Assembly: GCF_947486615.1 (NCBI RefSeq)
Contig: NZ_CANKUD010000002.1
Span: 186,001-250,000 of the forward strand
Direction: 5' to 3'
Length of the DNA: 64,000 nt
From: an uncultured Modestobacter sp.
Lineage (GTDB): Bacteria; Actinomycetota; Actinomycetes; Mycobacteriales; Geodermatophilaceae
A program made the translations under genes and the position numbers. Below the pieces are notes generated by a model. That model made no database searches, was not told the DNA's origin, and saw only the letters and a program-made list of their open reading frames with translations. Positions 6,291-64,000 of this stretch are shown here, in pieces. Position 1 is the first letter of the stretch. The number at the start of each line of letters is the position of its first letter.

Positions 6291-6299
6291 GCCGGTCGC

Positions 6300-8264: not shown

Positions 8265-8347
8265 AGCGTGACCCTCCTCACTGACGGCTTGTCCACGCTA
8301 CGTCCCGGGGTCCCCGCCCCGGGACACCGCCCTCCCGGCAGCACCGC

Positions 8348-10359: not shown

Positions 10360-10472
10360 CGGTCGGTCATCCCTCGCCCCGTCTGCTGTGCCGCGGTGTG
10401 CGGCATGCCGCCCGACCTCGTGCTCCTCGGCCGGGGAGGGAGATCATGACCGAGGAACCGGGGGCAGCGCAG

Positions 10473-10502
10473 GCGTCGTCCACACCTTCGGGTGGACGAC
10501 GC
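10473..10502. promoter_or_regulatory. Perfect 11-bp inverted repeat upstream of HTH gene
   Basis: GCGTCGTCCAC (10473-10483) and GTGGACGACGC (10492-10502) form a perfect palindrome with an 8-nt spacer that can itself pair CC/GG. It lies between the divergent CpaB-like and HTH genes, 62 bp before the HTH start. It is either an operator for a dimeric regulator or an RNA hairpin in the HTH leader. A strong GGAGGGAG-ATC-ATG sits at 10434-10448 just before it, without a convincing ORF. Confidence 0.55.
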
Positions 10503-10563
10503 ACCCCGATGTCACCCGGCTGCCACACTGGCGGGCACCTTCGACGGGAGAATCCGGACCCTC

Positions 10564-10803
10564 ATGGCCACCCAGCGCTTCCTCACCCTCGACGACGTCG
10601 CGGAGATCCTCAACGTCTCCTGGTCGCAGGCCTACGCACTGGTGCGTCGCAAGGAGCTCATCGCCATCCAGATCGGCGGCCGCGGGCAGTGGCGGGTCGA
10701 GAAGGACGAGCTGGAGCGCTTCATCCAGCAGAAGTACGCCGAGGCCCGGGCCGTGGCCGAGGAGCCGGTCGGCGAGGACGCCGGGGTCGACTCACCCCGC
10801 TGA
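10564..10803 (+). CDS. Excisionase/BldC-type helix-turn-helix DNA-binding protein
   Basis: Protein of 79 residues made almost wholly of a MerR-like winged HTH (HTH_17): RFLTLDDVAEILNVSWSQAY forms the first helices, and the recognition and wing segment reaches GGRGQWRVEKDELERFI. Such single-domain proteins (BldC, phage excisionases) bind direct repeats by head-to-tail assembly. No integrase or phage gene is nearby, so a chromosomal regulator is more likely than an excisionase. The ATG at 10564 is chosen because it starts the domain; the upstream in-frame extension from GTG 10492 looks non-coding. Confidence 0.8.
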   Translation: MATQRFLTLDDVAEILNVSWSQAYALVRRKELIAIQIGGRGQWRVEKDELERFIQQKYAEARAVAEEPVGEDAGVDSPR

Positions 10804-10842
10804 CCCACCGGGCCCCGGCGGAGACGGTGCCGGCCGGGCGGC

Positions 10843-11409
10843 TCAGCCGCCGGCCAGGGCGGTCCGCACGGCGACCACCGCCGGCAGGGGCAGCGTCCGC
10901 ACGCCGGTGACCGCCCCGCGGCGCCGCGGGGCGTCCAGCGGGTGCTCGGCCAGCTCCACGAAGTCCGCGCCGACCCGGTCGATGGTGCCGGTCGGCGCCG
11001 TGCCGTCGGCCAGCAGCACCTGCACCCCCGCCCGGTCCCGCGCCAGCCCGCGCAGGGCCCGGCGCAGGTCGAGTGCCCGGGCCACGGTGCCCTCCTCGAC
11101 CGCCGGTGCGGTCAGCGCGCTCAGCCCGCCGACCGAGCACACCGCGCGCACCGCCACCAGCACCTCCCGGTCCTGCGGGTCGGTCAGCAGCAACCAGTCG
11201 ACGCCGACGTCGGTGAGCCGGCCGCTGAGCTGACCGGCGCCGGTGCAGCCCAGCGTGAGCTCGTGCCCGCGTGCGCCACCGAGCCGGTCGGCGAGCCGGA
11301 CGCGCCCGTACTCCGCCCGGGCACGCGAGCCGTCCTCGGCCCGCTCGGCGACGGACTCCTGCTCGGCCACCTGGGCCTCGAGGTCGGCGAAGAGCTGCTC
11401 CCAGCGCAT
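10843..11409 (-). CDS. Conserved hypothetical protein, Sm-like beta fold possible
   Basis: Protein of 188 residues that I cannot assign. An N-terminal helical stretch rich in Glu and Ala (about 1-30) precedes a region of short beta-like strands (LTLGCTGAGQLSGRLTDVGV, then WLLLTDPQDREVLV) that might form an Sm/LSm-like barrel; the rest is Arg/Ala-rich. No signal peptide or membrane segment. The ATG at 11409 has no Shine-Dalgarno site but a TACGCT hexamer 7 nt upstream, suggesting a leaderless mRNA. It shares its promoter region, with three direct repeats, with the divergent LysM gene. Confidence 0.6.
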   Translation of the reverse strand: MRWEQLFADLEAQVAEQESVAERAEDGSRARAEYGRVRLADRLGGARGHELTLGCTGAGQLSGRLTDVGVDWLLLTDPQDREVLVAVRAVCSVGGLSALTAPAVEEGTVARALDLRRALRGLARDRAGVQVLLADGTAPTGTIDRVGADFVELAEHPLDAPRRRGAVTGVRTLPLPAVVAVRTALAGG

Positions 11410-11416
11410 GTCCGGG

Positions 11417-11422
11417 AGCGTA
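11417..11422 (-). promoter_or_regulatory. Candidate -10 element of leaderless 188-aa gene
   Basis: TACGCT on the minus strand ends 7 nt before the ATG at 11409 and fits the TANNNT pattern typical of actinobacterial leaderless promoters. No canonical -35 is seen; the TTGC repeats occupy that position. Confidence 0.4.
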
Positions 11423-11438
11423 GCTCGTCCACAGTTCA

Positions 11439-11467
11439 TTGCATTTGGTTGCGTTTGCTTGCGTTCA
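11439..11467. repeat. Three 10-bp direct repeats (TTGCRTTTG) in an AT-rich island
   Basis: TTGCATTTGG, TTGCGTTTGC and TTGCGTTCAT start at 11439, 11449 and 11459, exactly one helical turn apart. The island is markedly AT-rich for this genome. It lies between the divergent 188-aa gene and the LysM gene and overlaps the -35 position of the former. This looks like an operator for a protein that binds direct repeats cooperatively, for instance the BldC/excisionase-type protein encoded 640 bp away. Confidence 0.55.
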
Positions 11468-11500
11468 TGGTGTTTGGTCACCCCGACGAGAGGAGGCGCT

Positions 11501-12223
11501 GTGTCGATGCCGCGCTGGGTGGGGACGACGGCCGCGATGGGCGGTGCCGGCTGGCTGCTGGCCGTCATCGGTGCCGCACCCGCAGAGCTCCGGGCGGCCG
11601 CGCAGGCGCCGCAACAGCTGGTCGACACGGCCGGCGCGGACGCCCTGGTGGTCGTGGTCGTCACCGCGCTGGGCTGGCTGTGCTGGTCGTGGGGCGCGCT
11701 CGGGCTGCTGCTCACCGCGGCCACGGCCGTGCCCGGCTGGACCGGCCGGCTGGCCGGCGTCCTCCTGTCCGGAGTGCTGCCGGCCGGCGCCCGGCGGGCC
11801 GCCGCTCTCGCGATCGGCCTCGGGCTCAGCGCCACCGCCCCGCTGGCCGTACCGGCCGGGCCGCCTTCCGTGGCGGTGTCCACGGTGGGCGCCGAGCGAC
11901 CGGCCGGGGACCCGGTGCTCCTCGACTGGCCGGCGCAGTCCCCGGCGCTGGACTGGCCGGCAGCACCGGACCGACCCACCGCACCCTCCACCGGGCCACC
12001 GGTACCGGACTGGCCGTCCGCCGCGCCCGCCGGTCACGTCGTCCTCCGCGGCGACTGCCTCTGGGACATCGCCCGCGACCACCTGGCCGGGGCCGGCGCC
12101 CCGGTCACGGACGCCGCCGTCGCAGCGGCCGTGCAGGCCTGGTGGCACACCAACGCGGTCGTGATCGGTCCGGACCCCGACCTGCTGCTGCCCGGTCAGG
12201 TGCTGCAGCCACCACCGCCGTGA
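11501..12223 (+). CDS. LysM domain-containing membrane protein
   Basis: Protein of 240 residues. Two or three hydrophobic segments occur in the first 120 residues (about 5-20, 45-75 and 100-115), followed by a Pro-rich linker with repeated DWP motifs and a C-terminal LysM module (GHVVLRGDCLWDIARDHL, with LPGQVL at the end). LysM binds peptidoglycan, so the C-terminus is expected outside the membrane. The GTG at 11501 is preceded by GAGGAGG with about 4-5 nt spacing, a better start than the ATG two codons later. It is followed 49 bp downstream by the Rv3235-like gene, probably in one transcript. Confidence 0.8.
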   Translation: MSMPRWVGTTAAMGGAGWLLAVIGAAPAELRAAAQAPQQLVDTAGADALVVVVVTALGWLCWSWGALGLLLTAATAVPGWTGRLAGVLLSGVLPAGARRAAALAIGLGLSATAPLAVPAGPPSVAVSTVGAERPAGDPVLLDWPAQSPALDWPAAPDRPTAPSTGPPVPDWPSAAPAGHVVLRGDCLWDIARDHLAGAGAPVTDAAVAAAVQAWWHTNAVVIGPDPDLLLPGQVLQPPPP

Positions 12224-43259: not shown

Positions 43260-44135
43260 ATGCGCGGCATCATCCTGGCAGGCGGCAGTGGCACCCGGCT
43301 CTACCCGATCACCAAGGCGATCAGCAAGCAGCTGATGCCGATCTACGACAAGCCGATGATCTACTACCCGCTCTCCCTGCTGATGAACGCCGGGATCCGA
43401 GAGGTCCTGATCATCACCACCCCCGACGACCAGGCGCAGTTCCAGCGCCTCCTCGGCGACGGGTCCGACGTCGGCATCGAGATCAGCTACGCCGTCCAGC
43501 CGCGTCCCGAGGGCCTGGCCCAGGCCTTCGTCATCGGCGCGGAGTTCATCGGCGACCAGCCGGTGGCGCTGGTGCTCGGCGACAACATCTTCTACGGCAC
43601 CGGGCTGGGCAAGAACCTGCGCGCCAACACCGACCCGGTCGGCGGGCACGTGTTCGCCTACCACGTCGCCAACCCGAAGGACTACGGCGTCGTCGAGTTC
43701 GACGACGCCGGCCGGGTCATCTCCATCGAGGAGAAGCCCGCCGAGCCCAAGAGCAGCTACGCGGTGCCCGGGCTCTACTTCTACGACAACCGGGTCGTCG
43801 AGATCGCCTCGAAGATCACGCCCAGCGAGCGGGGTGAGCTCGAGATCACCGCGATCAACGACGAGTACCTGCGTCGCGGCGAGCTCACCGTCACCGTGCT
43901 CGAGCGCGGTACCGCCTGGCTGGACACCGGCACGCACGTGTCGATGATGCAGGCCTCGGAGTTCGTCCGGGTCGTCGAGGACCGGCAGGGCTGGAAGATC
44001 GGCTGCATCGAGGAGATCGCCTGGCGGCGCGGCTACATCGACGACGGGCAGCTCCAGGTGCTGGCGAAGCCGCTGGTGAAGAGCGGCTACGGCACGTACC
44101 TCCTCGGTCTCCTCGACGAGGTCACCCCCGGCTGA
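43260..44135 (+). CDS. rmlA: Glucose-1-phosphate thymidylyltransferase
   Basis: Protein of 291 residues. [20 protein letters not shown] at about 7-26 is the RmlA signature, followed by LGDNIFYG near 107, [15 protein letters not shown] near 159 and [11 protein letters not shown] near 220. It makes dTDP-glucose, the first step of dTDP-rhamnose. Length typical of the family. The ATG lies 6 nt from a TAGGCT element, consistent with a leaderless start. Convergent with the next GT4 gene at 23 bp. Confidence 0.96.
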
Positions 44136-45338: not shown

Positions 45339-47135
45339 TCAGACGGTGACCGTGCGGCACCCCAGCAGTCGGTTGGCCCCACCTGCGGACACGGTGATGC
45401 CGTACAGGCACACCTCGTGCTGGCCGGGCGACGTCGCGACGGTGCCGGCGAAGCCGTGCGCCGACCCGCCGTCCGGGTAGACCCGGGCGACGTCGCTGCG
45501 CGAACCCGCCGCCCCCAGTGCGCGGGCTGCCCGGCCGTCGACGTAGACGTGCACCGACGTGCTGGTCGTGCCTGCCTCGCTGTCGATGACCCAGCCGGCG
45601 ACGGAGACCCCACCGGTCACCGGGGTGACGGCGTCGACAGCTCCCAGCACACCCACCGGCAGCCCCACCGCCCGGCAGCCGATCAGGGTGTTGCTCCCGG
45701 CAGTGCCGGCCACGTTGATCCCGTAGACGCAGACCTGGTGCTGCCCTCCCCTGGTGGGTACGGCCGCGTCGAAGCCGTGTGCCGGACCTGCACCGGCGAA
45801 GGTCGCCGCCACGTCCGCGCGGGAACCGGTCGCCGAGACGGCGAGCACCGGCCGGCCGTCGAGGTGGGTGTGCGCACCGACCGACGTGGCAGGAGCGTCG
45901 CGGTCGAGCGCCCAGCCGGAGACCCGCACCGTGCGGAGTCCGGACGGTGCGACGACGTCCAGCGAACCGATCGGCCCCAACCGACTGGTGACGGTGCGAC
46001 AGCCCAACGTGGTGTTGCCCGATCCCCCACCGACGTTGATGGCGTACAGGCAGACGCTGTGGTTGCCGTCGGGAACGGACACGTCCACGGAGTAGCCGTG
46101 GGCCTGCCCCACCCCCGGGTGGGCCTTCGCGACGTCGGGCCGCGCTGCCGACGCGACCCAGGCACCGACCGCCCGCCCGTCGACGTACGCGTGCACCTGC
46201 AGGCTCCGGGTCGGAGCGTCCCGGTCGAGCGCCCAGCCCGAGAGGCGGAAGACCCCGGGGCTGGCTTCGGTCACCGTGTCGAGGTACCCGATCGGAATCC
46301 GGGAGGTGCCGGGGGCGGGCACCGTACCGCCCGGGAAGAGCCGCTGGACCGTTCTGGTGAGCGTCTCACCGCCATAGGCATAAGAGAGCCCGGACCCGTA
46401 CTGCGCCAGGACGGCGACGGCGTACCGGTTGGTCGGCCCCAGGACGCCGGTGGTGTGCAGCCGCCGCAGGCCCTCCTGGCAGCACATCCACCCCTGCTTG
46501 ACGCCCCTGACCTGCCCCGGCAGCGCGTCCGGGATGCCGGCAAACTGGTAGAAGCCGTCGGCCCCGGTCGGAGTTGCCTCCCGCATCAGCCGGACCAGGT
46601 ACTCGCGATCGGCCGAGTTGAGGCCGCCGCTGAGCATGCCGTCGTAGAACTTCACGACGTCGTGGGCGGTGATCTGGAACATGCCCCAGTAGCTCGGCGT
46701 CGGCGGCGGCCCGATCTCGCTCAACCCGTACTTCCGGGCCACGTCGGTCACGATCTGGAGGCCGCCGTACCGGCTGTACAGGCTGGACATCGCGGCGTCG
46801 TCCGAACGGCGGATCATCGACTCGAGCAGGGCAGCGTCCCCGGCAGGCAGCCGCATGCCGCGGGCCTGCCGGTCCAGCAGGTTCTCCGCGACGAAGACCT
46901 TGACGATGGAGGCGGAGCGGACCCGCGTGTGCGCGTGCCCGTTCTCCATCCATTGGCCGGTCTCGCGGTCGAGAACCGCGATGCCCACCGTGCCACGGCC
47001 GGCGGCGAAGGCGTCTGCCGAGTCGAGCTGGGTGCGGAGGTCGAAGGCCGCGGCCGGTGCCGCGGAGACGATCCCGGCGACCATCAGCGCGCTGAACAGC
47101 AGGCTGACGACCCGGCCCCGGGCGGTCAGCCGCAC
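45339..47135 (-). CDS. Secreted beta-lactamase-like serine hydrolase with four C-terminal repeats
   Basis: Protein of 598 residues with a signal peptide (hydrophobic 8-30, cleavage near AAPAAA). The serine hydrolase domain (about 35-285) has SIVK at 76-79 as SxxK, SDD at 111-113 in the SDN position and VKQG near 217 in the KTG position. Four repeats of about 78 residues follow, each with a GWALDRDAP-like strand, a GSRADVA segment, GHGF-type turn and VCxYxINV. These repeats occur in many actinobacterial exported proteins and are probably wall or glycan binding. True beta-lactamase activity is doubtful. It starts within the end of the upstream lipoprotein gene (10-bp overlap). Confidence 0.85.
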   Translation of the reverse strand: MRLTARGRVVSLLFSALMVAGIVSAAPAAAFDLRTQLDSADAFAAGRGTVGIAVLDRETGQWMENGHAHTRVRSASIVKVFVAENLLDRQARGMRLPAGDAALLESMIRRSDDAAMSSLYSRYGGLQIVTDVARKYGLSEIGPPPTPSYWGMFQITAHDVVKFYDGMLSGGLNSADREYLVRLMREATPTGADGFYQFAGIPDALPGQVRGVKQGWMCCQEGLRRLHTTGVLGPTNRYAVAVLAQYGSGLSYAYGGETLTRTVQRLFPGGTVPAPGTSRIPIGYLDTVTEASPGVFRLSGWALDRDAPTRSLQVHAYVDGRAVGAWVASAARPDVAKAHPGVGQAHGYSVDVSVPDGNHSVCLYAINVGGGSGNTTLGCRTVTSRLGPIGSLDVVAPSGLRTVRVSGWALDRDAPATSVGAHTHLDGRPVLAVSATGSRADVAATFAGAGPAHGFDAAVPTRGGQHQVCVYGINVAGTAGSNTLIGCRAVGLPVGVLGAVDAVTPVTGGVSVAGWVIDSEAGTTSTSVHVYVDGRAARALGAAGSRSDVARVYPDGGSAHGFAGTVATSPGQHEVCLYGITVSAGGANRLLGCRTVTV

Positions 47136-51707: not shown

Positions 51708-52706
51708 TCAGGTGTCGCCTCGCGAACGCACGATCAGGTCGGCGAGCAGGGTGAGCGTGAAGATGAGCAAGCCGCTGATGAACAGCAGGACGGCGTTCGT
51801 GGTGATCCCGAAGTCGTACCGGATCACGTCGATGATGCCCTTGATGAAGGAGAGCCCGAGGAGCGTCAACGCGATCGGCATGAGGACCTTGATCGGGTTG
51901 AAGTACATCACCATCCGCAGGACCTGCAGGATGTAGCGGTACGCGTCCTTGGTGAAGTGGAACTTCGACTTGCCCGCACGCTTCGCATAGTCGATCGGCA
52001 TGTAGTCGACCGGGTGCTGGTTGGACAGGAACGACATCGTGATCGTCGTGACGCAACTGAAGCCGGGTGGCAAGAGGCGGAGATAGGGCAACGAGACGTC
52101 CCGCCGGAAGGCACGCAGCCCCGAGTTCAGGTCGGGGATCTTGGTGGACGACAGCTTCTCCGCGACCTTGCGGATGACCCACTTGGCCGGGACGCGCAAG
52201 AGCTTGTGCGTGCCCTCCTCGGTGGTCCGGGCACCCACGACCTGATCCACCCCCGGGTTGTCCTGGAGGTGACGGACGAACTCCGGGATCCGCTCGTTCG
52301 GGTACGTCATGTCCGCGTCGGTCCACACCACGATCCGGCCGAAGGCCTCGCGGGTGCCGATGCGACGAGCGGTTCCGGAGCCACCGTTGGTCCGGAAGGG
52401 CATGAGCCGCATGTGGGGGTAGTCGGGCAGCGCGGCTTCGAGGACCGCCAGAGTGCCATCGGTCGACTTGTCGTCGATGACGAGCAGCTCGTAGCTGTAC
52501 TCGCTCGCATCCATGGCGGCCGTGATGCGCTTGATCTCGTCTACGACGTGGTCCCGTTCGTTGTAGCAGGGCAGCACGACCGTGACGTCCAGCGTGTTCT
52601 CACCGGTCGGCTGATCGGTCGAGGACACCGACAGATGACCCGGCGGCGTCACGCGGACGGTCTGGATGGAAGCTGTTTCAGCAACAGTTGGCGACGTTCC
52701 GGTCAC
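51708..52706 (-). CDS. GT2 polyprenyl-phosphate sugar transferase with two C-terminal membrane helices
   Basis: Protein of 332 residues. GT-A core: VTVVLPCYNERDHVVDEI near 40, LLVIDDKSTDGTLAVLE near 73, VVWTDADMTYP near 125 and DYAKRAGKSKFHF near 235. Two hydrophobic helices follow near 275-325. This is the dolichol-phosphate-mannose synthase/GtrB layout, which makes a polyprenyl-phosphate sugar donor used outside the membrane. The DUF2142 multi-pass protein next door is a plausible acceptor-side partner. GTG 52706 is one of several possible starts. Confidence 0.85.
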   Translation of the reverse strand: MTGTSPTVAETASIQTVRVTPPGHLSVSSTDQPTGENTLDVTVVLPCYNERDHVVDEIKRITAAMDASEYSYELLVIDDKSTDGTLAVLEAALPDYPHMRLMPFRTNGGSGTARRIGTREAFGRIVVWTDADMTYPNERIPEFVRHLQDNPGVDQVVGARTTEEGTHKLLRVPAKWVIRKVAEKLSSTKIPDLNSGLRAFRRDVSLPYLRLLPPGFSCVTTITMSFLSNQHPVDYMPIDYAKRAGKSKFHFTKDAYRYILQVLRMVMYFNPIKVLMPIALTLLGLSFIKGIIDVIRYDFGITTNAVLLFISGLLIFTLTLLADLIVRSRGDT

Positions 52707-52847
52707 GACAGGCGAGGCTACCTGGTGCCGGAGCCCGCGTCCGGGACCTGGTGCAACTTCTTCTCCCAACGGACAGTTGATCAGTCGGACCCAGCGGCGG
52801 TTGCCTGTCCGCGCGCGCTGCGGAACGCGCCACGGTCGGACAGCAGC

Positions 52848-54635
52848 TCAGTTCTGCTGGTGACGGAGACCCCCGGCCGGGACGCTCGCCGGCTCGGCAC
52901 CGGCCGATGCCTCCCGCTCATCGGTGCCCGAGAGCGGGCGCCGATCCGTCGAGTACGGAGCAGGAACCGGTTGCCCCACGGACCCGAGCTCGTGGAGCGC
53001 GCTGACCCGCCCCAGGAGCAGAGCCAGGGCCAAGGCGCAGAGCACCAGCGAGGACAGGAGCCCCGCGATGACGATCGGGGACCAGGGCGACCAGCCGAGG
53101 AACAGGTCGACGGCATCACCCCAGGACCGGCCGGGTTCGACGTAGTAGATGCGGAACCCGAAGCCCAGCCCCAGGAGTGCGACCACCAGACCCACCGCGG
53201 CGACGCCGCCACCCAGCCAGACCCCCGACAACCGGGCCACCCGGCCGATGCGGACGAGTCCTGCAGCAAGGAGGGCAGCCAGCGGGACGATCAGCACGAA
53301 CAGGTACCGCCCCTGGAGACCGGGCAGGTTCAGCGTGTGCAGGTGCGCGGAGTACGTCGTCGTGAACAGGATCCCGACGGTCAACCCGAGCCCGAGGAGG
53401 ATGATCAGTCGCGCACCGAGGCGCCGCCGTGACAGCAGCCCCACGCCGCACAGGACGAGGAAGACCCACAGCAGGCTGAGGGTGAACCAGTCCGGCATGG
53501 GAGCCTCGAGCAACCCGATGTCCCCGAAGAAGCTCTGCCGGATGCGCCGAGCGAAGATCTCGGCGAACTCGAAGATGCCGAGGGGTGACATGGCCCCCTG
53601 GGGCGTGTAGTACGCCGCCGGCTGCAGGGAGCCGAAGCGCACGATGTTCAGCGCCCACCACCAGCCGCCGAGCACGAAGGCACCCGCCATCACCAGGCCG
53701 GTCGACACCGCCGCAGGCCTCCCCCAGTCCCGGAGCGCGCCACCCCGACTGCGCCGGTAGGCGAGGGGGATCGCGAGGAAGGCACCGGGGATGAGCGACA
53801 GCGCGGTCCCCTTCGTCCATAACGCCGCGGCGACCGCGAGGCCGAGCACCAGCAAGCGCCGTCGGCTCGGCCCTGAACAGAGGACCTTGAGCAGCGCCGC
53901 CCACAGCACGGCGGCCACTGCGATCGCCGCCGCGTCGTTCGTCACCGAGCCACCGACGAAGCCGAGTTGAGGCACCAGCAGGGGGGCGAAGGCCGCGAGC
54001 CTGCCCGCCCACTCGAGACCGGTGAGCTCTCGCGCCGCGACGAAGCAGGAGACCGGCACCGTCACCGCGATCATCAGGGCACCCAGGGCCCGCAACAGGA
54101 AGAGCGCCCGGTCGTAGCGCCACTCGCCGACCTGCGCCGCGTCGTAGACCACAGCGGCGAGCGCGTAGTAACCCGGCGGGTGCTGTGTCATCTGATCGAT
54201 CGACCTGGTGTCCGTCGGTTCGTCGTCCAGCCCGTCCAACGACTCCCGCTCCGCCACCCCCGTGGGTGGCACCTCGGCGAACCGCAGGCTGTCCGGGCCT
54301 CCGTTGACCGATCCGGGCAGGTACGTCCGCTTCCCGTCCTGCGTCGAGCCGGACAGCTCCCGCGCGTCGATCACCTCCTCCCGGACGAACGCATCTCCGG
54401 GCTTCGGCCATCCGTCGCCCTCCGCGAGCCGAACGACGCTGTTGAGGTGCTGGACCTCGTCGGGCGCGCGGAAGCCGGGCGTCAGAGCCGCCCATGACAG
54501 AGACACCAAGAGCAGGAGCAGCGAAGCCAGGACCACGAACCACACAGACGGGTTGCTCCGCCTGAAGCGACTTCCCGCCGGCACCATCCACCTCACAGCG
54601 GGCTCACTTCCGGACGTCCAGCGGGACACGAGCAT
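52848..54635 (-). CDS. DUF2142 multi-pass membrane protein
   Basis: Protein of 595 residues with about twelve membrane helices. FRAPDEVQHLNSVVRLAEG near 55-73 and TQHPPGYYALAAVVYDAAQ near 147-165 are the DUF2142 signatures. The family resembles GT-C glycosyltransferases and uses polyprenyl-phosphate sugars. Together with the DPM-type GT downstream, in the same direction and 142 bp away, it probably modifies a surface glycan. Substrate unknown. ATG start at 54635, preceded by AAAGG. Confidence 0.8.
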   Translation of the reverse strand: MLVSRWTSGSEPAVRWMVPAGSRFRRSNPSVWFVVLASLLLLLVSLSWAALTPGFRAPDEVQHLNSVVRLAEGDGWPKPGDAFVREEVIDARELSGSTQDGKRTYLPGSVNGGPDSLRFAEVPPTGVAERESLDGLDDEPTDTRSIDQMTQHPPGYYALAAVVYDAAQVGEWRYDRALFLLRALGALMIAVTVPVSCFVAARELTGLEWAGRLAAFAPLLVPQLGFVGGSVTNDAAAIAVAAVLWAALLKVLCSGPSRRRLLVLGLAVAAALWTKGTALSLIPGAFLAIPLAYRRSRGGALRDWGRPAAVSTGLVMAGAFVLGGWWWALNIVRFGSLQPAAYYTPQGAMSPLGIFEFAEIFARRIRQSFFGDIGLLEAPMPDWFTLSLLWVFLVLCGVGLLSRRRLGARLIILLGLGLTVGILFTTTYSAHLHTLNLPGLQGRYLFVLIVPLAALLAAGLVRIGRVARLSGVWLGGGVAAVGLVVALLGLGFGFRIYYVEPGRSWGDAVDLFLGWSPWSPIVIAGLLSSLVLCALALALLLGRVSALHELGSVGQPVPAPYSTDRRPLSGTDEREASAGAEPASVPAGGLRHQQN

Positions 54636-55798: not shown

Positions 55799-57397
55799 TC
55801 AGGCCCGGAGCTGATCAGGGATGGCTTGCGTCCAGTAGCTGTCCCGCATCAGCTCCTGCCGCCAGCGGTTGCGCAGCGTGTCCACTTCGCTGATGGCGAC
55901 CCGCCGCGGGCGAGACCGCGACTCGTAGTGGTAGAGCACCGCGTGCGGGGTAACCAGAACCCGTCGTCCCGTGCCCGTGACCTTGAAGCTGAAGTCGACG
56001 TCGTTGAAGTTGACCGGTAGTGCCCGGCTCAACCCACCGACCTCGTCGAACACCGCGCGGGGGAACAGGGCGCAGGCCCCGGTCACCCCGGTGACCTCAC
56101 GATCCACCAGGTAGCCCGCCGACGGCCCGGTCGCGTCGGCCGGCTCCCCCGCGGCGGTGTGCACGACGTGCCCGCGACCGACGTGGAGACCGAGGTGCTG
56201 GATCAGGTCGTTCTCGTAGAGCAGCTTGGCACCCACCATGCCGACATCCGGCTCGAGCAGGCCCACCATGGTCGTCAGCCAGTCGGGAGTGACGACCTCG
56301 GTGTCGTCGTTCAGGGTCACCAGGAGGTCGCCTCGGGCGGCGTGGACACCGCTGTTCACCTGCCCGGAGTAGTTGAACGGTCCGGTGTGCTCCAGGATCC
56401 GGACCCGGCTGCGGGAGAGCGCCCGCAACTCCTCGACCACCTCCGGCGGAGTGGCCCGATCGGCGATCACCACCACCTCGATGTTCGGGTAGGTGGTCCG
56501 TTCGACGACCGACCGCACCGCCTCGACCACCAGCACCCGCTCCACGCCGCGCACCGACGCCGTGGTGCCGCGGGTGGGGACGACGATGCTGACCAACGGG
56601 AGCTCCCGGAGCTCGCGCCGCACGCGGTAGACCCCGATGGGGTGCACCTGCTCCACCGTGCCCTGCCGACCGGTCCGCTCCAGGTGCTCGCTCAGCGCCC
56701 GGCGGGCGGCGGCGAAGACCGCTGCGTTGTCCGCTCGGTGGGACACCGAGCCCGGGTGGATGCGCCAGTGGTAGAGCACCTCGGGCACGTGCACGACCTC
56801 GCGGGCTCGTTCGGTTGCGCGCAGCGCGAGGTCGTAGTCCTGGCTGCCGTCGAACCCGGCACGGAAGCCGCCCACCTCGGCCAGCAGGCTCCGCCGGTAC
56901 ACCACGAGGTGGCCCAGGTACATCTGCCCGCGGAGCCGCTCGGGCGAGAAGTCCGGCTTGCGGAACGGGTCCCCGAGCCTGCCGTCGTGGATCTGGTCCT
57001 CGTCCGAGTAGAGGACGTCGGCCTCCGGATGCGCTTCGATCGCGGCCAGCATCCGTTCCAGCGCCTGGGGGGCGAGCCGGTCGTCGTGGTCCAGCAGCGC
57101 CACGAACTGGCCGCGGGCTGCTGCCAGCCCGTGGGAGCTGGCACCCACGATCCCCAGGTTGGTGGCCAGCGGTTCGAGCCGGATCCGGGGATCCCCGGCA
57201 GCCAGGTGGTCCAGCGCTGCGGTCAGCTCGGGCGAGTCCGAACCGTCGTCGACGAGCACCAGCTCCCACGAACGCTCGGACTGCGCCTGCACCGAGCGGA
57301 CCATCTCCCCCAGGTGCCCGGGGTCGGTCCGGTACACCGGCACCAGGACGGTGAACGTCGGGTCCGCACCCGAGGAACCGCCAGACACAGCGGTCAT
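55799..57397 (-). CDS. Double-domain glycosyltransferase family 2
   Basis: Protein of 532 residues holding two GT-A domains. Domain 1 spans about 14-230 (FTVLVPVYRTDPG, LVLVDDGSDSPEL, VALLDHDDRLAP, YSDEDQIHDGRL). Domain 2 spans about 268-520 (VSIVVPTRGTTAS, LVTLNDDTEVVTPDWL, GACALFPRAVFDEVGGL, NFNDVDFSFKV). Such tandem enzymes can add two sugars in turn or polymerise. Last gene of the leftward operon; its ATG overlaps the methyltransferase stop. Confidence 0.87.
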   Translation of the reverse strand: MTAVSGGSSGADPTFTVLVPVYRTDPGHLGEMVRSVQAQSERSWELVLVDDGSDSPELTAALDHLAAGDPRIRLEPLATNLGIVGASSHGLAAARGQFVALLDHDDRLAPQALERMLAAIEAHPEADVLYSDEDQIHDGRLGDPFRKPDFSPERLRGQMYLGHLVVYRRSLLAEVGGFRAGFDGSQDYDLALRATERAREVVHVPEVLYHWRIHPGSVSHRADNAAVFAAARRALSEHLERTGRQGTVEQVHPIGVYRVRRELRELPLVSIVVPTRGTTASVRGVERVLVVEAVRSVVERTTYPNIEVVVIADRATPPEVVEELRALSRSRVRILEHTGPFNYSGQVNSGVHAARGDLLVTLNDDTEVVTPDWLTTMVGLLEPDVGMVGAKLLYENDLIQHLGLHVGRGHVVHTAAGEPADATGPSAGYLVDREVTGVTGACALFPRAVFDEVGGLSRALPVNFNDVDFSFKVTGTGRRVLVTPHAVLYHYESRSRPRRVAISEVDTLRNRWRQELMRDSYWTQAIPDQLRA

Positions 57398-58575
57398 CGC
57401 CGCCGGCGGAACCGCCGCGGGACCGCCACCGGCGCCATGACCAGCCGGCCGAACTTCCAGGTCGCGCTGGCCCGCAGCTCCGACAGCTGCCGCACCGACT
57501 CCGCGTGCAGCCTGTCCAGCTCCGCGCGCAACTGCTGCTCCTGGAGCCGGCTGTGGTGGAGGTCGGCGTGCACGCTGGCCAGGTCCACGTTGATCGCGTC
57601 GACCTGGACCTGGGCGTCCGCGTACGCGTTCTCACTGCGCAGCCTGGCCTGGGTCAGCTCGGCTCGCAGACCGATGAGCTCGTCCACCAGACCGAGCCGC
57701 ACGAGCTGGTCGGCATGGTCTCCCCCGTCGCGGAGCTCCACCAGGTCGTCCACCACCCGGTCGCGGTCGGCGGTCACCTCGGCCCGCTCCCGCTCGGCGA
57801 GCTCGACGGCCGCCTGCAGGTCGTGGACCTGCTGCGCCAGCTCCTCGCGCTCCGGCCCGCCGGTCTGCTGCAGCCGGTCCAGGTCCCGCTGGGTCTCCAG
57901 CAGCGCCTGTCGCTTCGCCACCACCTCGCGGGACAACGGCGACACGAGCGCCTCGTAGCGAGCGACGAGCTCGACCGGGGTCAGCTCCGCCTTCTCGTAG
58001 ACCACCGCCCACGGGGACAAGAAGGAGGCATCGACGTCGGTCCGCCGGAAGAAGCCGTGCCGGGCGAAGTCCGCCGCCCAGGAGGCGGGCGTCCGCACGT
58101 TGATGTGCGTCGGCTCGGTGAAGTCGTCGGGGGTGGAGGAGATCAGCAAGGTGTCCGCGGCCGCGCAGAGGTTGCCGATGGCGCGCTGCGCATCGGGCGG
58201 CGACATGTGCTCGAGCACCTCGATGCAGGAGACCAGGTCGTACCGCTCGGTGAACGGCCGGGTGAGGTCGCGCACCTCCAGCCGCTCCCGCAGCCCATCC
58301 GGTGCACCGGCGACGGCGAACTCGGAGATGTCACCGCCGCGGGCGTCGACCCCCCGCTCGAGCAGGGCGCGCACGAACAGCCCGATGGCGCACCCCGCGT
58401 CGTACGTGCGCGCCGGGGCGAACGTGGCGACCACGGCATCGGCCACGGCACCGAAGAACTGCTTCCAGTGCGGCTCCTCGTAGGTGTAGGGCGGGCCCAG
58501 GTGGCCGTCGAAGTAGAACGCCGAGTAGTCCGCCGACGTCGTCCCCGCGGCACCGTCGGTGCGCTGCTCGGTCAT
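57394..58575 (-). CDS. SAM-dependent methyltransferase with long C-terminal coiled coil
   Basis: Protein of 393 residues. The N-terminal class I methyltransferase (about 45-190) has TYDAGCAIGLFVRALLERG as motif I near 57-75 and YDLVSCIEVLEHMSP near 110-124. From about 210 to 370 the sequence is highly charged and heptad-like (for example EREELAQQVHDLQAAVELAE), a predicted coiled coil of some 160 residues. It ends with SATWKFGRLVMAPVAVPRRF plus Arg, a basic amphipathic tail that may sit on the membrane or another enzyme. It is coupled by 4-bp overlaps to GT2 genes on both sides. The layout recalls WbdD, which caps and measures O-antigen chains, but no kinase domain is present. Confidence 0.85.
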   Translation of the reverse strand: MTEQRTDGAAGTTSADYSAFYFDGHLGPPYTYEEPHWKQFFGAVADAVVATFAPARTYDAGCAIGLFVRALLERGVDARGGDISEFAVAGAPDGLRERLEVRDLTRPFTERYDLVSCIEVLEHMSPPDAQRAIGNLCAAADTLLISSTPDDFTEPTHINVRTPASWAADFARHGFFRRTDVDASFLSPWAVVYEKAELTPVELVARYEALVSPLSREVVAKRQALLETQRDLDRLQQTGGPEREELAQQVHDLQAAVELAERERAEVTADRDRVVDDLVELRDGGDHADQLVRLGLVDELIGLRAELTQARLRSENAYADAQVQVDAINVDLASVHADLHHSRLQEQQLRAELDRLHAESVRQLSELRASATWKFGRLVMAPVAVPRRFRRRR

Positions 58576-60263
58576 GCCGCTCCTTCGTTCCCGCCGCCAT
58601 CGTCGGCGCCACGGGTCATCGGTGTGGTGTGCTGGTCTTCGAGCTGCCCGTGCACGGCCGGCTGAACGGCAGGCAGGTACTCGTCATGCTCCATCATGGT
58701 GCGCCAGCGGCGCAGGATCACGTCGCGCTCCCAGGAGAGCAGCCGGGCGATCCGGGTCTGCGACTCGAAGTGGAAGAGCTCGGCGTGCGGGGTGTAGACG
58801 ATCCGCTGGCCGCGCCGGCGGATCTTCAGGCAGAAGTCGACGTCGTTGTAGTTGAGCGGGAGGATCTCGGAGAAGCCGCCCACTGCGGCATGGTCGGCCG
58901 CCCGGACGACCGCACAAGCAGCCGTGACCCCGGAGCGGGCGCCGGCCAGCTGCGCGCTGCCACCCAGGGCCAGGGTGTTCGCCGGCCAGCCCAGCAGCGG
59001 ATGCCCGGCATGGCCGTCGCGGTAGCCGTGGCCGACGTGCTGCAGCGAACCGTCCTCCAACAGCAGCTTGGCGCCGACCAGCCCCACATCGGGATCGACC
59101 AGGTGCCCTGTCATCGCCGCCAGCCAGTCGGGCGACAGGACCTCGACGTCGTCGTTGAGGAAGCACAGCAGCTCACCGGTCGCAGCGACCGCACCGACGT
59201 TGCACTTGCGCGAGAAGTTGAACGGCTCGTCGAACAGCACGGTCCGCAGTCCGTCGCCGACGATGTCCGCCAGTTCGTCGAGCACCGCCTGCGGCGTGTC
59301 GGCGTCATGGACGACCACGAACTCCACCAGCCCGGGGAACCGGTCCGGGACCCAGACCGAACGGGCCAGCTCCACGACGTGGCACCGCTCGACCCCGCGC
59401 ACCACCGAGCTGCTCCCCCGGGTCGGGACGACGATGCTCACCCTGGCGTCGGCGGGTGGAGTCAGCCGCACCCACTGCCCGATGACCCGACCCCGCACCT
59501 CGACCGGGGTCACGTCGTCGACTGCCAGCCCGCGGCGGGCGCAGCTCGCCCGCGCCGCTGCGGCTGCATCCGTCGGCCGGACCAGCGGTGCACCGAGGTC
59601 CGCGCGACGGCGCACCAACGGCTCGGGGACATGGCCACCTGACCCACCCTCGGCGGCGCGCAGCACGAGGTCGTACCACTCCGCGGTCCCCATCCGCGGG
59701 TCGGGACCACCGAGCTCGCGCAGCGCAGACCGGGAGATCGCGACCCCGGCGGCGAAGTCCGGCTGGGCCAGCAGCAGCTCGGGCGAGGCCGTCGGCTTCT
59801 CCCACCGGTGCCAGGCCGAGCTCTCCCCGTTCCGCGGCAGCAGCTCGTCGCTGTAGAGCCAGCCGCCGTCACCTGCCGCAGCCCCCAGGCACCCGACCGC
59901 TTCCGCCGCCAGCGTGTCCCCGACCGGCAGGACCAGCAGCAACGCGCCGGCGGCGACGCGCAGCCCTTCGGCGAGCATCTCCCCCGGGGTCGCAGGGTGG
60001 ACCACCACCCGGCTGTCCTCCGCAGGCCCGGTGAGGGACGGCGGAGCTGGGACTCCCGAGACCGTGACGACCACCCACTGCCAGCGGGGATCGTGCTGCG
60101 CACGCAGCGAAGCCCAGGTCGCGGTCAGCAGGTCGGCAGCCGGTTCCCCACCGGCATCGGCGTCGAGGACGGTCACCACCGTCAGCGTCGGGTCCGCCCC
60201 CTCACCCTCGAACCGCCACTCCTCGTCCCTGCACCCGGCCCGGGCCGCCGCCGAACCGCTCAC
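58572..60263 (-). CDS. Double-domain glycosyltransferase family 2
   Basis: Protein of 563 residues. The N-terminal GT-A-like half (about 25-245) is divergent, with WLYSDELLPRNGESS in place of a clear catalytic DxD. The C-terminal GT-A domain (about 270-520) is complete: VSIVVPTRGSSS, FLNDDVEVLSPDWL, ACAVVRAADHAAVGGF, NYNDVDFCLKI. It resembles the enzyme two genes downstream, suggesting duplication with loss of activity in one half. GTG and ATG overlaps link it to its neighbours. Confidence 0.85.
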   Translation of the reverse strand: MSGSAAARAGCRDEEWRFEGEGADPTLTVVTVLDADAGGEPAADLLTATWASLRAQHDPRWQWVVVTVSGVPAPPSLTGPAEDSRVVVHPATPGEMLAEGLRVAAGALLLVLPVGDTLAAEAVGCLGAAAGDGGWLYSDELLPRNGESSAWHRWEKPTASPELLLAQPDFAAGVAISRSALRELGGPDPRMGTAEWYDLVLRAAEGGSGGHVPEPLVRRRADLGAPLVRPTDAAAAARASCARRGLAVDDVTPVEVRGRVIGQWVRLTPPADARVSIVVPTRGSSSVVRGVERCHVVELARSVWVPDRFPGLVEFVVVHDADTPQAVLDELADIVGDGLRTVLFDEPFNFSRKCNVGAVAATGELLCFLNDDVEVLSPDWLAAMTGHLVDPDVGLVGAKLLLEDGSLQHVGHGYRDGHAGHPLLGWPANTLALGGSAQLAGARSGVTAACAVVRAADHAAVGGFSEILPLNYNDVDFCLKIRRRGQRIVYTPHAELFHFESQTRIARLLSWERDVILRRWRTMMEHDEYLPAVQPAVHGQLEDQHTTPMTRGADDGGGNEGAA

Positions 60264-62761
60264 CTCTGCCGGAACCTCCCGCGGGCGAGCCGAGCCGCCC
60301 GGGCACCGAGCTTCTGAGCCAGGAGCTGCGGGCCACCATCGCGCAGGTAGGTGCGCACCAGCGCGGCGTCACCCCGCACCCCCTGCCACGGGGGCTCCAC
60401 CACGGAGACCCCGCGGCCGGTGTCGAGCCGGCCGTCGGCATCCAGCAGATCGTCCGCGCGGCGAGGGTCGCGGCAGAACGCGCGCAGCGGCTCCAGGACG
60501 CTCGACCACTGGTACTCCGGCACGATGCCGGCCAGGTTCGCCCGATAGCGGGCGTTCACCTCACTGTCGCTCAGCAGCGTGGTCAGCACCTCGGCCAGCC
60601 GCTCCACGTCGCCGGCGGGGACGGTGCAACCGAGTTCCCGCTGCTCGACCAGGGTGGCGAGCGAGTCGCCCTCGGTGCACACGATCGGCAACGAGGACCA
60701 GATGTAGTCCAGGATCCGGGTACGGAAGGAGAACGCCGTCTCGACGTGGTCCAGGTGGGTGCTGACCCCGATGTCGCTCTCCAGCAGGAAGTTCTGCCGC
60801 TCCTCGTAGGGCACCCACTCGTAGTTGAAGATCACCGTGCTGCCCAGCAGCCCGAGTTCCTCGGCCAGCTCACGGGCCTGGGTGGCCATCCGCATCTCCG
60901 GCACGGCCGGATTGGGGTGCTTGACACCCATGAAGAGCAGCCGCGCCTCCGGGACCCGGTCCCGAACGAGCGCCATGGCGCGGATCAGCGTCAGCGGGTC
61001 GAACCAGTTGTAGATGCCGCCGCCCCACAGCACGACCTTGTCGTCCTCGCCGATGCCCGGGAGCACACCCTTGACGCTGCGCCGGGTGGCGACGGGCGGC
61101 TGGTCCTCGACGCCGAACGGGACGACCGTGATCAGCGAGCCCAGCGTCTCGTCACGGTCGTACACCGCGGGGTTGACCCGGCCCAGGCCCGCCATCTGGC
61201 CGAGCCAGAAGTCCCGCTGCTTCTCCGAGGCGCACAGGAAGAAGTCGCCCCGGAGGATCTGCTCGTTGAGGACCCCGGTGGCCGACTGCACCACGTTCCG
61301 GCGTCCCTCGGGACCGAGGTCCTTCGCCTGCTCCAGCTGCTCCAGGTGGAAGGGGTCGTACATGTCGACGACGATCGGCTTCCGGCTGGCACGGAGGACG
61401 GGGTACTCGTGCATCAGGTACCCCTGGAAGACGATGACGTCCGCCCAGCGCTCGAGCTCGGCCATGTCCGCCTGCGTGGCCACCCGCCGCGTGGCGAAGT
61501 CGCTGCGCTGGAGGTCGCACACGGACGTCGTGGCGAGCACCACCTCGTGGTCCCCGGCCAGCGCCTTGGCGATCTGCAGAGCACGGATCGCCGGCCCGGC
61601 CATCCGCGCGGCGAGCGTGTCGCCGGTGAGCACGAGCACCCGCCGGCGAGCCCGGAAGGGCACGTCGACCTCGAAGGCCGCGCTGGCCGACTGGAAGTCG
61701 CGGACGAAGTCGATGTCGGGGATGTTCGGCACGAGGGGCATGCCGAACATGCGCAGCACCTCGCCGTCACTGCGCCGCCGGGCTCCCTGGACCTCCGCCC
61801 GGCTGCGGTCCAGCGAGGCCAGCTCCCGGACGAAGGCGTCGACGGCGTAGGCCGAGGCCAGCATCGTCTTGGACACCTCGGCCGTGGCCGGCTCGTCGGG
61901 GATCGGCGGCGTGACGGCGAGGTCCAGCGCCGAGCTGTCGGCGCCGCCGAGCACGACGCCGCGCCGGACGGCCAACGCGAGCGCCGGGGCGAGGAACCGG
62001 GCCAGGTTCTCGTCGCCGTAGTTCTTGTAGATGGTGAACAGCGCGTTCCGCTCGAGGAGGAACTGCTCGCGCCAGGCCCCGAGCTTGGACATCGAAGCGT
62101 GGTGCTTGTGCAGGACCAGGGCCCTGGGCACGTAGCGGACGCGGTGGCCGGCCAGCCACAGCCGCCAGCCCAGGTCCACGTCCTCGAAGAACATGAAGTA
62201 GCGCTCGTCGAAGCCGCCGACCTCCTCGAAGGCCGACCGGCGGACGACCAGCGCCGACCCGGTGCCGAACAGCACGTCGCGCGGGTCGTCCCAGCTGCCG
62301 TCGTCGACGGCGCCGACGTGCATCTTGAACCCCTGGCCGTACCAGGAGAGGGCGCTGCCCACGAAGTCGACGCGTTCACCGGACCAGTCCACGACCTTGG
62401 CCGCCACCGCCCCGATCGCGCTGTCCTGCAGGGCGTCGACGGCGGCGCCCAGGAAACCCGGCTCCGGCCGCGCGTCGTTGTTGATGAACGCGAGGTGATC
62501 GGTGCGGACCCCGCGGGCGCCGAGGTTGCACCCGCCCGCGAAGCCGAGGTTGCGGTTGGAGGCGATCACCTCCACGCCCGGGGCTGCCTCCCGGATGCGG
62601 CTCACGTCATCCCCGCCGCTGGCGTTGTCCACCACACGCACGCGGAGGCGGTCCTGCGGCCAGTCCAGCGCCTTGATGCCCTCGAGGCAGGCGATGGTGT
62701 CCTCGGCGCCCTTGTAGTTGACCACCACGATGGTGACCGAGTCGCTGTTCGTGGTCTTCAT
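60260..62761 (-). CDS. GT2-GT4 fusion glycosyltransferase
   Basis: Protein of 833 residues. The N-terminal GT2 domain (about 8-300) has VTIVVVNYKGAEDTIACLEG, VVDNASGGDD, LAFINNDARPEPGFL and FMFFEDVDLGWRLWLAGH. The C-terminal GT4-type GT-B domain (about 390-750) has RRVLVLTGDTLAARMAGPAI, VLWGGGIYNWFDPLTLIRA and LDYIWSSLPIVCTEGDSLA. Fusions of this kind couple two additions in one polymer-building enzyme. The ATG at 62761 has AGGAGA at ideal spacing; a longer upstream reading is rejected. Expressed with the Wzt-like ATPase 103 bp upstream. Confidence 0.9.
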   Translation of the reverse strand: MKTTNSDSVTIVVVNYKGAEDTIACLEGIKALDWPQDRLRVRVVDNASGGDDVSRIREAAPGVEVIASNRNLGFAGGCNLGARGVRTDHLAFINNDARPEPGFLGAAVDALQDSAIGAVAAKVVDWSGERVDFVGSALSWYGQGFKMHVGAVDDGSWDDPRDVLFGTGSALVVRRSAFEEVGGFDERYFMFFEDVDLGWRLWLAGHRVRYVPRALVLHKHHASMSKLGAWREQFLLERNALFTIYKNYGDENLARFLAPALALAVRRGVVLGGADSSALDLAVTPPIPDEPATAEVSKTMLASAYAVDAFVRELASLDRSRAEVQGARRRSDGEVLRMFGMPLVPNIPDIDFVRDFQSASAAFEVDVPFRARRRVLVLTGDTLAARMAGPAIRALQIAKALAGDHEVVLATTSVCDLQRSDFATRRVATQADMAELERWADVIVFQGYLMHEYPVLRASRKPIVVDMYDPFHLEQLEQAKDLGPEGRRNVVQSATGVLNEQILRGDFFLCASEKQRDFWLGQMAGLGRVNPAVYDRDETLGSLITVVPFGVEDQPPVATRRSVKGVLPGIGEDDKVVLWGGGIYNWFDPLTLIRAMALVRDRVPEARLLFMGVKHPNPAVPEMRMATQARELAEELGLLGSTVIFNYEWVPYEERQNFLLESDIGVSTHLDHVETAFSFRTRILDYIWSSLPIVCTEGDSLATLVEQRELGCTVPAGDVERLAEVLTTLLSDSEVNARYRANLAGIVPEYQWSSVLEPLRAFCRDPRRADDLLDADGRLDTGRGVSVVEPPWQGVRGDAALVRTYLRDGGPQLLAQKLGARAARLARGRFRQR

Positions 62762-62864
62762 GATCTCCTCTTGGAATCCGGAACGGGCGCGCGCCCCGCG
62801 GGTCCGGCGACCGGACACCCGAGCCCGACCGCCAGCACCCTCGCCGTGCCGTGCGGGCACACCC

Positions 62865-64000
62865 TCACCGGGTGGACGGGGGGGACTCGCTCCGCAGGTC
62901 CCAGGAGCCACCCAGGGACATGACGCCGTAGTGGTCTCGCGGCGTACCGGGGATGACGTGGAAGCGGAGCACCTTCTCCCGGTGGTCGAAGGCGTGCACC
63001 ACGCTGCGGTCGAAGACCGCAGCGGTGAGGTCGTAGGTCCCCGGCGTCAGCATGAGACGCGACACGTGCAGGTCCAGGTGACCGGTGCCGTGCAGAGTGC
63101 CGGTGCGGACCTCGGCGTCCCGGGTGTTGGGCCCGGTGACGTGCACCCCCTCCAGGGTGTGCAGGGCGATGCCGAACACCGGCTCGACCACCGGTGCCGC
63201 CGCCTCCCAGTGCAAGCGGACGACCACGTCGTCGCCGGTCGACACCTTCGTCGTCGACTGTCCGCCGGAGAGCACCTCGGCGCCGGTCAGCCGGACCTCG
63301 CCGCTACCCCAGCGGCTGTGCCCGGCCCCCTCCTCGGCGGCCGGCGCCTCCTCGACGACCCGGTCCTCGTGCGAGGCGCCGACGTACTCGTCCACCAGGT
63401 CCTCGGGCCGACCCACACCCTTGAGCTTGCCGTGGTCGAGCCAGGCGACCTCGTCGCACATGCTCCGCATGGTGCCGAGTGCATGGCTCACGATCACGAC
63501 TGTCCGACCCTCGGCGCGGAAGTCGGCGAACTTCTCCATGCACTTGCGCTGGAAGGACTCGTCACCCACCGCGAGCACCTCGTCGACCATCAGGATCTCG
63601 GGATCCACGTTGATCGCCACGGAGAACCCCAGCCGCACGTACATGCCCGAGGAGTAGTTCTTGACCGGGGAGTCGATGAACGTCTCCAGCCCGGCGAAGT
63701 CGACGATCTCGTCGAACTGACGGTCGATCTGCTTGCGCGACATGCCCAGGATCGACCCGTTGAGGTAGACGTTGTCCCGCCCGGACAGTTCCGGGTGGAA
63801 GCCCGCGCCCAGCTCGAGCAACGCCGAGACCTTGCCGTTCACCTGGGTGCGACCGTGATCGGGCACCAGGATGCCGGCCAGGCACTTCAGCATCGTGCTC
63901 TTGCCCGAGCCGTTGTGACCGATCAAGCCGAAGGTCTTGCCGGTCGGGATGGTCAGGTCGACGTCCCGGAGAGCCCAGAACTCGTCGAACTTGGCCCTGC
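62865..64000 (-). CDS. Polysaccharide ABC transporter ATP-binding protein (Wzt/TagH-like), 5' end beyond window
   Basis: Partial gene; 378 codons are visible and the start is past base 64000. The frame stays open from 63926 to the window edge (FDEFWALRDVDLTIPTGKTF). Walker A GHNGSGKST, the LSGRDNVYLNG block, signature NYSSGMYVRLGF and Walker B ILMVDEVLAVGDE are present. After the ATPase, about 150 residues form a beta-rich domain (DDVVVRLHWEA, HLDLHVSRLMLTPGTYDLTAAV) like the Wzt C-terminal carbohydrate-binding domain, which recognises the modified chain end. Its permease should lie to the right, outside the window. Confidence 0.92.
   Translation of the reverse strand, partial: RAKFDEFWALRDVDLTIPTGKTFGLIGHNGSGKSTMLKCLAGILVPDHGRTQVNGKVSALLELGAGFHPELSGRDNVYLNGSILGMSRKQIDRQFDEIVDFAGLETFIDSPVKNYSSGMYVRLGFSVAINVDPEILMVDEVLAVGDESFQRKCMEKFADFRAEGRTVVIVSHALGTMRSMCDEVAWLDHGKLKGVGRPEDLVDEYVGASHEDRVVEEAPAAEEGAGHSRWGSGEVRLTGAEVLSGGQSTTKVSTGDDVVVRLHWEAAAPVVEPVFGIALHTLEGVHVTGPNTRDAEVRTGTLHGTGHLDLHVSRLMLTPGTYDLTAAVFDRSVVHAFDHREKVLRFHVIPGTPRDHYGVMSLGGSWDLRSESPPSTR

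Follow-up and report, generated by a model that had tools for sequence, protein, structure and literature searches.

Does the long coiled-coil methyltransferase encoded in the window (the whole 64,000-nucleotide stretch analysed here) act as a WbdD-like capping ruler, the role that the first-pass annotation proposed for it? In the excerpts consulted of one study, all terminated O-polysaccharide examples have a Wzt that carries a CBM, and each terminator protein is described with a coiled-coil ruler (PMC11231755). We refer to the window protein as MTase-CC (P0001).

The operon and its methyltransferase

A tightly packed operon on the minus strand encodes Wzm, Wzt, a GT2-GT4 fusion, a dual-GT2 protein, MTase-CC and a second dual-GT2 protein, in that order (Table 1). 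Genes overlap by 4 bp at all three junctions from the GT2-GT4 gene through the last dual-GT2 gene, MTase-CC overlapping glycosyltransferase genes on both sides. These overlaps and the Pfam domains bear out the leftward operon and gene parts read earlier from the sequence, including the GT2-GT4 fusion and the two double-GT2 enzymes. For one of the latter (58572-60263) the second GT2 alone was clear to Pfam, and both domains were found by a GT2 profile built here. The likely true start of the GT2-GT4 ORF is the ATG at 62761, which has GAGGAG upstream. The carbohydrate-binding-like C-terminal domain claimed for Wzt is likewise present: PF14524 is fused to the ATPase (E 1e-22 / 2.9e-23) and is the sole match at E <= 0.001 within its genome. 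The best PDB matches of Wzt are full-length Wzt chains (8dku, 1.1e-66; 7k2t, 2.9e-66). Elsewhere in the window, the nucleotidyltransferase, which we take to be RmlA-like, suggests dTDP-sugar supply.

Table 1. Features of the operon and its surroundings, in window coordinates.
Feature	Position	Strand	Basis
Nucleotidyltransferase	43260..44135	+	PF00483, 3.8e-73
GT2 with C-terminal hydrophobic segments (spotted by eye), resembling AglJ below the AglJ cut-off; context	51708..52769	-	
DUF2142 predicted membrane protein; context	52848..54635	-	
Dual-GT2 glycosyltransferase directly downstream of MTase-CC; candidate polymerase partner	55799..57397	-	Two GT2 stretches (Pfam)
MTase-CC: class-I SAM methyltransferase, long coil, basic tail; 393 aa	57394..58575	-	
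Basic C-terminal tail with S-x-T-W-K motif	57397..57468	-	
Predicted coil, residues 200-369, helix break ~283-286	57469..57978	-	
Conserved coil centre motif VDELIGLRAE, residues 297-306, between constant N-arm and variable C-arm	57658..57687	-	Alignments
Methyltransferase domain, residues ~30-195, motif I DAGCAIG	57991..58488	-	Pfam core; outer borders estimated from alignment
Other dual-GT2-like protein, first domain weak	58572..60263	-	Pfam and own GT2 profile
GT2-GT4 fusion	60260..62911	-	Pfam
Wzt ATPase	62865..64000, continuing to 64097 past the window edge	-	
Wzt_C carbohydrate-binding domain	62916..63320	-	PF14524
Wzm; operon member	64111-64926, beyond the window		

Residues ~51-174 of MTase-CC match the Pfam families Methyltransf_23, 12, 25 and 11 (Methyltransf_23 E 1.8e-9), and Pfam gave no kinase domain in the protein at E 0.01. 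In alignment and AlphaFold2 the methyltransferase runs straight into the coil with no domain between. AlphaFold2 was run from four-row alignments on full MTase-CC and on the methyltransferase domain alone; its model of the methyltransferase part was unusable (mean pLDDT 42 for the domain alone), and the assignment as a methyltransferase therefore rests on Pfam.

The coil was scored with a heuristic of our own. The score exceeded the cut-off at 152 of 170 residues, which 5/1000 shuffles matched. A single global 3.5-residue periodicity was not significant in the coil (646/2000 shuffles as high), so that any coil has register breaks. The last 26 residues hold nine K/R and no D/E. The methyltransferase, a long predicted coil (~170 residues, against about 160 as first described) and a basic tail are borne out, but the amphipathicity of the tail is not, since 630/1000 shuffles had as high a moment; in 3 of the 13 homologues the tail moment was equalled by at most 25/1000 shuffles. 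Across the window protein and the three relatives closest to it, the N-arm measures 90, 90, 90 and 87 residues and the C-arm 73, 93, 41 and 69. Judged on sequence, such C-arm variation beside a constant N-arm might fit a ruler; the C-arm length differences (20, 32 and 52 residues) are not heptad multiples, which we counted against that reading.

Neighbourhoods of methyltransferase-coil proteins

The co-occurrence of methyltransferase-coil proteins with Wzt_C raised by the first-pass annotation was indeed observed. An MTase ORF whose coil spans 50 residues or more was present in 14/42 of the family's Wzt_C loci vs 0/34 PF02397 control loci, with a Fisher p (1.4e-4) that overstates independence because the loci are phylogenetically related. 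The 42 loci are those above the Pfam cut-off among 51 matches listed (L020 and L021 fall outside them, as there is no Wzt there). The controls were hand-picked from the PF02397 matches listed rather than drawn at random, mostly as the best-listed site per genome, on long contigs and away from listed Wzt_C. A stricter recount found MTases in 19/42 Wzt_C loci vs 1/34 controls, with the coil counts still 14 and 0; a first count of MTases in 25/34 controls was discarded because the iterated profile had drifted, we suspect to other Rossmann folds. The 30 best-scoring MTase loci from six genomes contained 31 MTase ORFs, a single one of which reached the 50-residue coil length and was itself at a Wzt_C locus (L066); a 35-residue cut gave 3/31. 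As a baseline, coding-like ORFs with coils of at least 70 residues numbered nine in Wzt_C loci (six MTases) and three in controls (no MTases). Moreover, Wzt_C loci of this one bacterial family show five MTase-coil layouts, one of them a true WbdD homologue.

Homologues of MTase-CC itself (a weak match in G762, an MTase alone with no coil, was removed) retain motif I in 12 of 13 cases. The other, L194, has lost motif I and has no Pfam match, and retains a 51-residue coil, the tail and the dual-GT2 partner. The L093 homologue is that of Blastococcus capsensis. Wzt_C lies within ~6 kb in 5/13 homologue loci, one from a named Nakamurella and another from the same genus group, and on another contig in three more of the 13 genomes. 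No Wzt_C match was obtained in 5/13. The genome searches scored just the best few candidates in each genome (up to 16 or 4, depending on the search), and diverged copies can therefore be missed. Therefore more distant relatives do occur without a Wzt-CBD neighbour, an outcome that the first-pass annotation had itself named as refuting its reading. The tightest link is to the dual-GT2 gene, which directly follows MTase-CC in 11 of the 12 homologue loci that could be assessed; in each of the eight relatives whose junction was inspected, the stop of MTase-CC is overlapped by a possible start codon, and the glycosyltransferase neighbour is conserved across families.

The window Wzt_C shares 70% identity with that of L058 and 67% with that of L052, both without an adjoining MTase-CC, 69% with that of L053, whose 5.4-kb contig is too short to show one, and only 61% with that of L019, which has MTase-CC. 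On these identities Wzt_C relatedness does not track the presence of MTase-CC, which counts against the role first proposed.

Comparison with known terminators

A PDB search with MTase-CC, run up to E 1, gave no WbdD entry; the L077 protein, encoded in a genome of the same bacterial family, matches WbdD there at 1.5e-40. Like WbdD of E. coli O9a, MTase-CC has an N-terminal methyltransferase followed by a coil (here predicted) and a C-terminal membrane or partner region (here putative), together with a Wzt CBM; unlike it, MTase-CC has no kinase domain and is 393 rather than 708 aa long. The remaining systems are given as described in the consulted excerpts of the cited papers. E. coli O8 has a methyltransferase-only WbdD homologue (PMC3482155), and the methyl-only WbdD proteins of E. 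coli O8 and K. pneumoniae O5 are kinase-free methyl terminators with a coil, adjoining a CBM-bearing Wzt (PMC3482155, PMC11231755), a type to which MTase-CC would correspond. MTase-CC differs in its dual-GT2 partner, its actinobacterial host and its lack of a match to WbdD structures, a comparison that did not include the O8 protein itself. ORF6 of K. pneumoniae O7 (MTase, cryptic kinase, coil and two GT modules) also ties an MTase and coil to two GT modules and Wzm/Wzt export (PMC11231755), whereas in MTase-CC the coil follows the MTase directly and the dual GT2 is encoded by a gene of its own.

The Gram-positive Geobacillus stearothermophilus has in WsaE a methyl-capping enzyme with no kinase; the enzyme is believed to act on a chain exported by Wzm/Wzt, and its product is predicted to be bound by Wzt (PMC2943079). 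Unlike MTase-CC, WsaE carries two GTs within its own chain and caps independently of chain length in vitro, and the excerpt mentions no coil for it (PMC2943079). In Aquifex aeolicus the Wzt C-domain binds a methyl cap, 7k2t being the named template (PMC9445017). The full-length window Wzt matches 7k2t, but its C-domain matches the A. aeolicus C-domain weakly in sequence in a ligand-site alignment (E 0.06). The novelty claimed for a kinase-free capping methyltransferase in a Gram-positive was therefore too strong, given E. coli O8 (PMC3482155), WsaE (PMC2943079) and the Aquifex methyl cap at Wzt (PMC9445017). With kinase-free (E. coli O8) and Gram-positive (WsaE) precedents, MTase-CC varies a known theme. 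Among the matches listed in a literature search, no title describes an actinobacterial terminator.

Proposed function and competing readings

We propose, with confidence evenly balanced, that MTase-CC terminates chains by methylation alone and also serves as a scaffold for the polymerase. The operon parts would jointly build a lipid-linked glycan in the cytoplasm for export via Wzm/Wzt. The basic tail of MTase-CC would sit at the membrane, and the dual-GT2 from the overlapping downstream gene (55799-57397) would be bound by the coil or the tail. The N-terminal methyltransferase, positioned at the opposite end of the coil, would methylate the growing non-reducing end when the chain reaches it, and this terminal methylation would stop growth. 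At the window locus, binding of the capped end by Wzt_C would then set off export. The co-occurrence with Wzt_C, the C-arm length variation and the dual-GT overlap speak for the WbdD-like capping ruler first proposed; the distant homologues without Wzt_C and a Wzt_C similarity independent of MTase-CC speak against it.

The same proteins could be read otherwise. It is possible, though we lean against it, that coil and tail mainly serve to anchor the dual-GT2 at the membrane, with the methyltransferase decorating internal or adaptor sugars and not setting chain length, and with Wzt_C reading some other chain end. The dual-GT2 link is more constant than the Wzt_C link, L194 still has its short coil, its tail and its dual-GT2 despite the lost motif I, and Wzt_C relatedness ignores MTase-CC; yet the retention of motif I by nearly all homologues, and the concentration of MTase-coil fusions at Wzt_C loci in several layouts, speak against this reading. 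That the methyltransferase targets something besides the exported glycan (a lipid carrier, for example, or a protein), its operon position being incidental, we consider very improbable: the families and PDB entries that it matches are generic methyltransferases, but it overlaps GT genes on both sides and its GT neighbour is conserved across families.

We also think it improbable that the coil folds back on itself within one chain as an antiparallel hairpin, with its turn at residues 283-286, and that the protein is hence no extended ruler. AlphaFold2 did predict two equal 83-residue helices (200-282 and 287-369) split at GGDH, with pLDDT 70-82 across residues 221-360 and lower at either end. 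The monomer is similar to helical hairpins and to other folds built of long helices in the PDB, although Foldseek with the full model gave nothing at E <= 0.001 and was not used to classify MTase-CC. Against a hairpin, a long helix predicted on its own as a monomer is often folded back, and the arms are unmatched in relatives: an N-arm of 90 residues occurs with C-arms of 41, 73 or 93, and the two lengths are not significantly correlated (Spearman 0.37, p 0.24, 12 proteins).

More tentatively, the five layouts may reflect a conserved polymerase scaffold of coil and tail that was given different capping domains several times in actinobacteria, some lineages using a ruler-terminator without a CBM exporter, so that length control would be uncoupled from cap-gated export. 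Actinobacterial surface glycans are little known. If the terminator reading is true, the natural C-arms of 41, 69, 73 and 93 residues make the ruler idea testable by swaps, and genomes that lack Wzt_C would allow the roles of terminator and export gate to be told apart. Moreover, capping from a coiled stalk as a means of controlling length would not be a speciality of Gram-negative LPS, having been rebuilt several ways in actinobacteria.

The methyltransferase-coil protein and its operon

The 393-aa window protein, here MTase-CC, matches methyltransferase families in Pfam over residues ~51-174, with DAGCAIG as motif I. Residues 200-369 are helical in an AlphaFold2 prediction and coil-like by our own heuristic score, and a basic tail follows the coil. 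A mid-coil motif (VDELIGLRAEL in MTase-CC, RD-H-IG-EA in distant relatives) is kept in 12 of 13 homologues, being absent from L135. When MTase-CC was compared with its counterparts in Blastococcus capsensis (L093), a Blastococcus MAG (L091) and Nakamurella aerolata (L092), the arm before the motif measured 90, 90, 90 and 87 residues respectively and the arm after it 73, 93, 41 and 69; across all 12 motif-bearing homologues the N-arm is not constant (43-108 residues).

The source genome is 4.7 Mb, with G+C 74% over the window plus 18 kb. Minus-strand gene order is Wzm, Wzt with the carbohydrate-binding domain Wzt_C (PF14524), GT2-GT4, a dual-GT2 glycosyltransferase (GT2x2), MTase-CC and another GT2x2, with 4-bp overlaps at the last three junctions. 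Elsewhere in the window, a GT2 with hydrophobic segments adjoins a DUF2142 membrane protein; speculatively, this pair could add side chains outside the membrane. Three predicted proteins have in common a ~100-residue repeat (GWA.D.D.P...VHVYVDG, by eye) that had no Pfam match; one carries an amidase domain and one a beta-lactamase-like domain.

Coordinates of features in the window, its flank and other loci (L numbers)
Feature	Position	Strand	Location
MTase-CC	57394-58575	-	window
Wzm	64111-64926	-	past window end
RmlA-like gene	43260		window
RmlB-like gene	73173		outside window
LytR-CpsA-Psr gene with LytR_C	74203		outside window
GT2 and DUF2142 pair	51708-54635		window
Repeat protein	45339-47135	-	window
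Repeat protein	66162-69692	-	past window end
Repeat protein	69299-72178	-	past window end
Coil-MTase-kinase	5821-7365	+	L077
Coil-MTase-kinase	9630-11168	-	L076
MTase, ~300 aa, coil	1422-3566		L070
MTase, ~300 aa, coil	1553-3586		L074
MTase, ~300 aa, coil	6826-9042		L079
MTase, ~300 aa, coil	7222-9186		L083
GT4-coil ORF	6418-9072	+	L082
Degenerate homologue	9538-10443	+	L194
RgpF-MTase-coil fusion	9717-11579	-	L135

Methyltransferase-coil proteins at Wzt_C loci

PF14524 matched in 45 of 112 family genomes. Methyltransferase ORFs whose coil spans 50 residues or more occur at 14/42 Wzt_C loci versus 0/34 PF02397 control loci; at the remaining 28 none was found in the stretch read, some contigs being short. 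Sorted by eye, the layouts were MTase-coil (window, L019), MTase-[~300 aa]-coil (L070, L074, L079, L083), coil-MTase-kinase (L076, L077), coil-MTase (L054, L059, L061, L065, L067) and MetW-like MTase-coil (L066, and L194 outside the 42-locus set).

The first-pass annotation had likened MTase-CC to WbdD, the chain-capping methyltransferase/kinase of E. coli O9a; against the PDB, MTase-CC gave no WbdD match. L077 matched WbdD structures at 1.5e-40, which marks it by sequence as a genuine actinobacterial homologue of WbdD; its predicted coil is N-terminal, not C-terminal. Kinase and methyltransferase matches of L076 are similar. The ~300-aa middle part of the four longer proteins had no Pfam match, showed an HN-ID.EW-like motif by eye, and is reminiscent of the cryptic kinase in Klebsiella O7 ORF6 (PMC11231755). 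The L074 methyltransferase matched 7pd7, CgnL in that paper, weakly (0.0015, fourth of 11 matches). At another Wzt_C locus, L082, an 885-aa GT4 ORF with a ~128-residue C-terminal coil, possibly a GT-type terminator, adjoins a Wzt/Wzm split over several frames.

Distribution of homologues and their neighbours

Strong matches to MTase-CC (E < 1e-130) were confined to two other genomes among the 112 of the family, with weak ones (1e-5 to 1e-8) in nine further genomes. Profile searches at E <= 1e-20, the source genome counted, matched 6/397 order and 7/394 class genomes. Neighbourhoods were read at 13 coil-bearing homologue loci. GT2x2 lies directly downstream in 11, the exceptions being L135, which instead has an RgpF-MTase-coil fusion, a single-chain form of the module, and L091, whose contig ends at that point. 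Wzt_C lies within about 6 kb in five (window, G004, G558, G548, G567), on another contig in three (G033, G603, G151), and was not found genome-wide in five (G112, G296, G406, G477, G491).

A proposed terminator and scaffold role

We favour, at about even confidence, MTase-CC as a methyl-only terminator and polymerase scaffold. By analogy, the system would work like several described ones: E. coli O8, whose WbdD homologue is a methyltransferase alone (PMC3482155); Klebsiella O4 and O7, with coil terminators of differing catalytic kinds (PMC11231755); Geobacillus WsaE, Gram-positive and kinase-free (PMC2943079); and Aquifex Wzt, which binds methyl caps (PMC9445017). No actinobacterial coiled-coil terminator appeared among the matches listed for titles and abstract openings of open-licence literature. 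The least secure step is that Wzt_C would read the cap in the window locus.

Some evidence counts the other way. The same Wzm-Wzt-GT2GT4 core occurs in L052 and L058 without an adjoining MTase-CC, and in L053 the contig ends inside it. Identity to the window's Wzt_C is 67% (L052), 70% (L058) and 69% (L053), higher than the 61% of L019, which has an MTase-CC; ATPase identity is nearly equal (about 90-92%). The genome of L052, G033, holds MTase-CC on another short contig; none was found in G061 (L053) or G036 (L058; 80% complete). The main rival casts the protein as a scaffold that methylates without terminating the chain; we regard it as less likely. In L194 the homologue beside GT2x2 is degenerate, with motif I lost and no Pfam match remaining, and a separate MTase-coil gene adjoins Wzm. 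The degenerate homologue keeps a 51-residue coil, the centre motif, the tail and its GT2x2 neighbour. This suggests an independent function for coil, tail and glycosyltransferase partner.

As to the product, the two genes that we take to be RmlA and RmlB and the LytR-CpsA-Psr gene, on general knowledge of these families, fit a dTDP-sugar-containing, wall-attached glycan.
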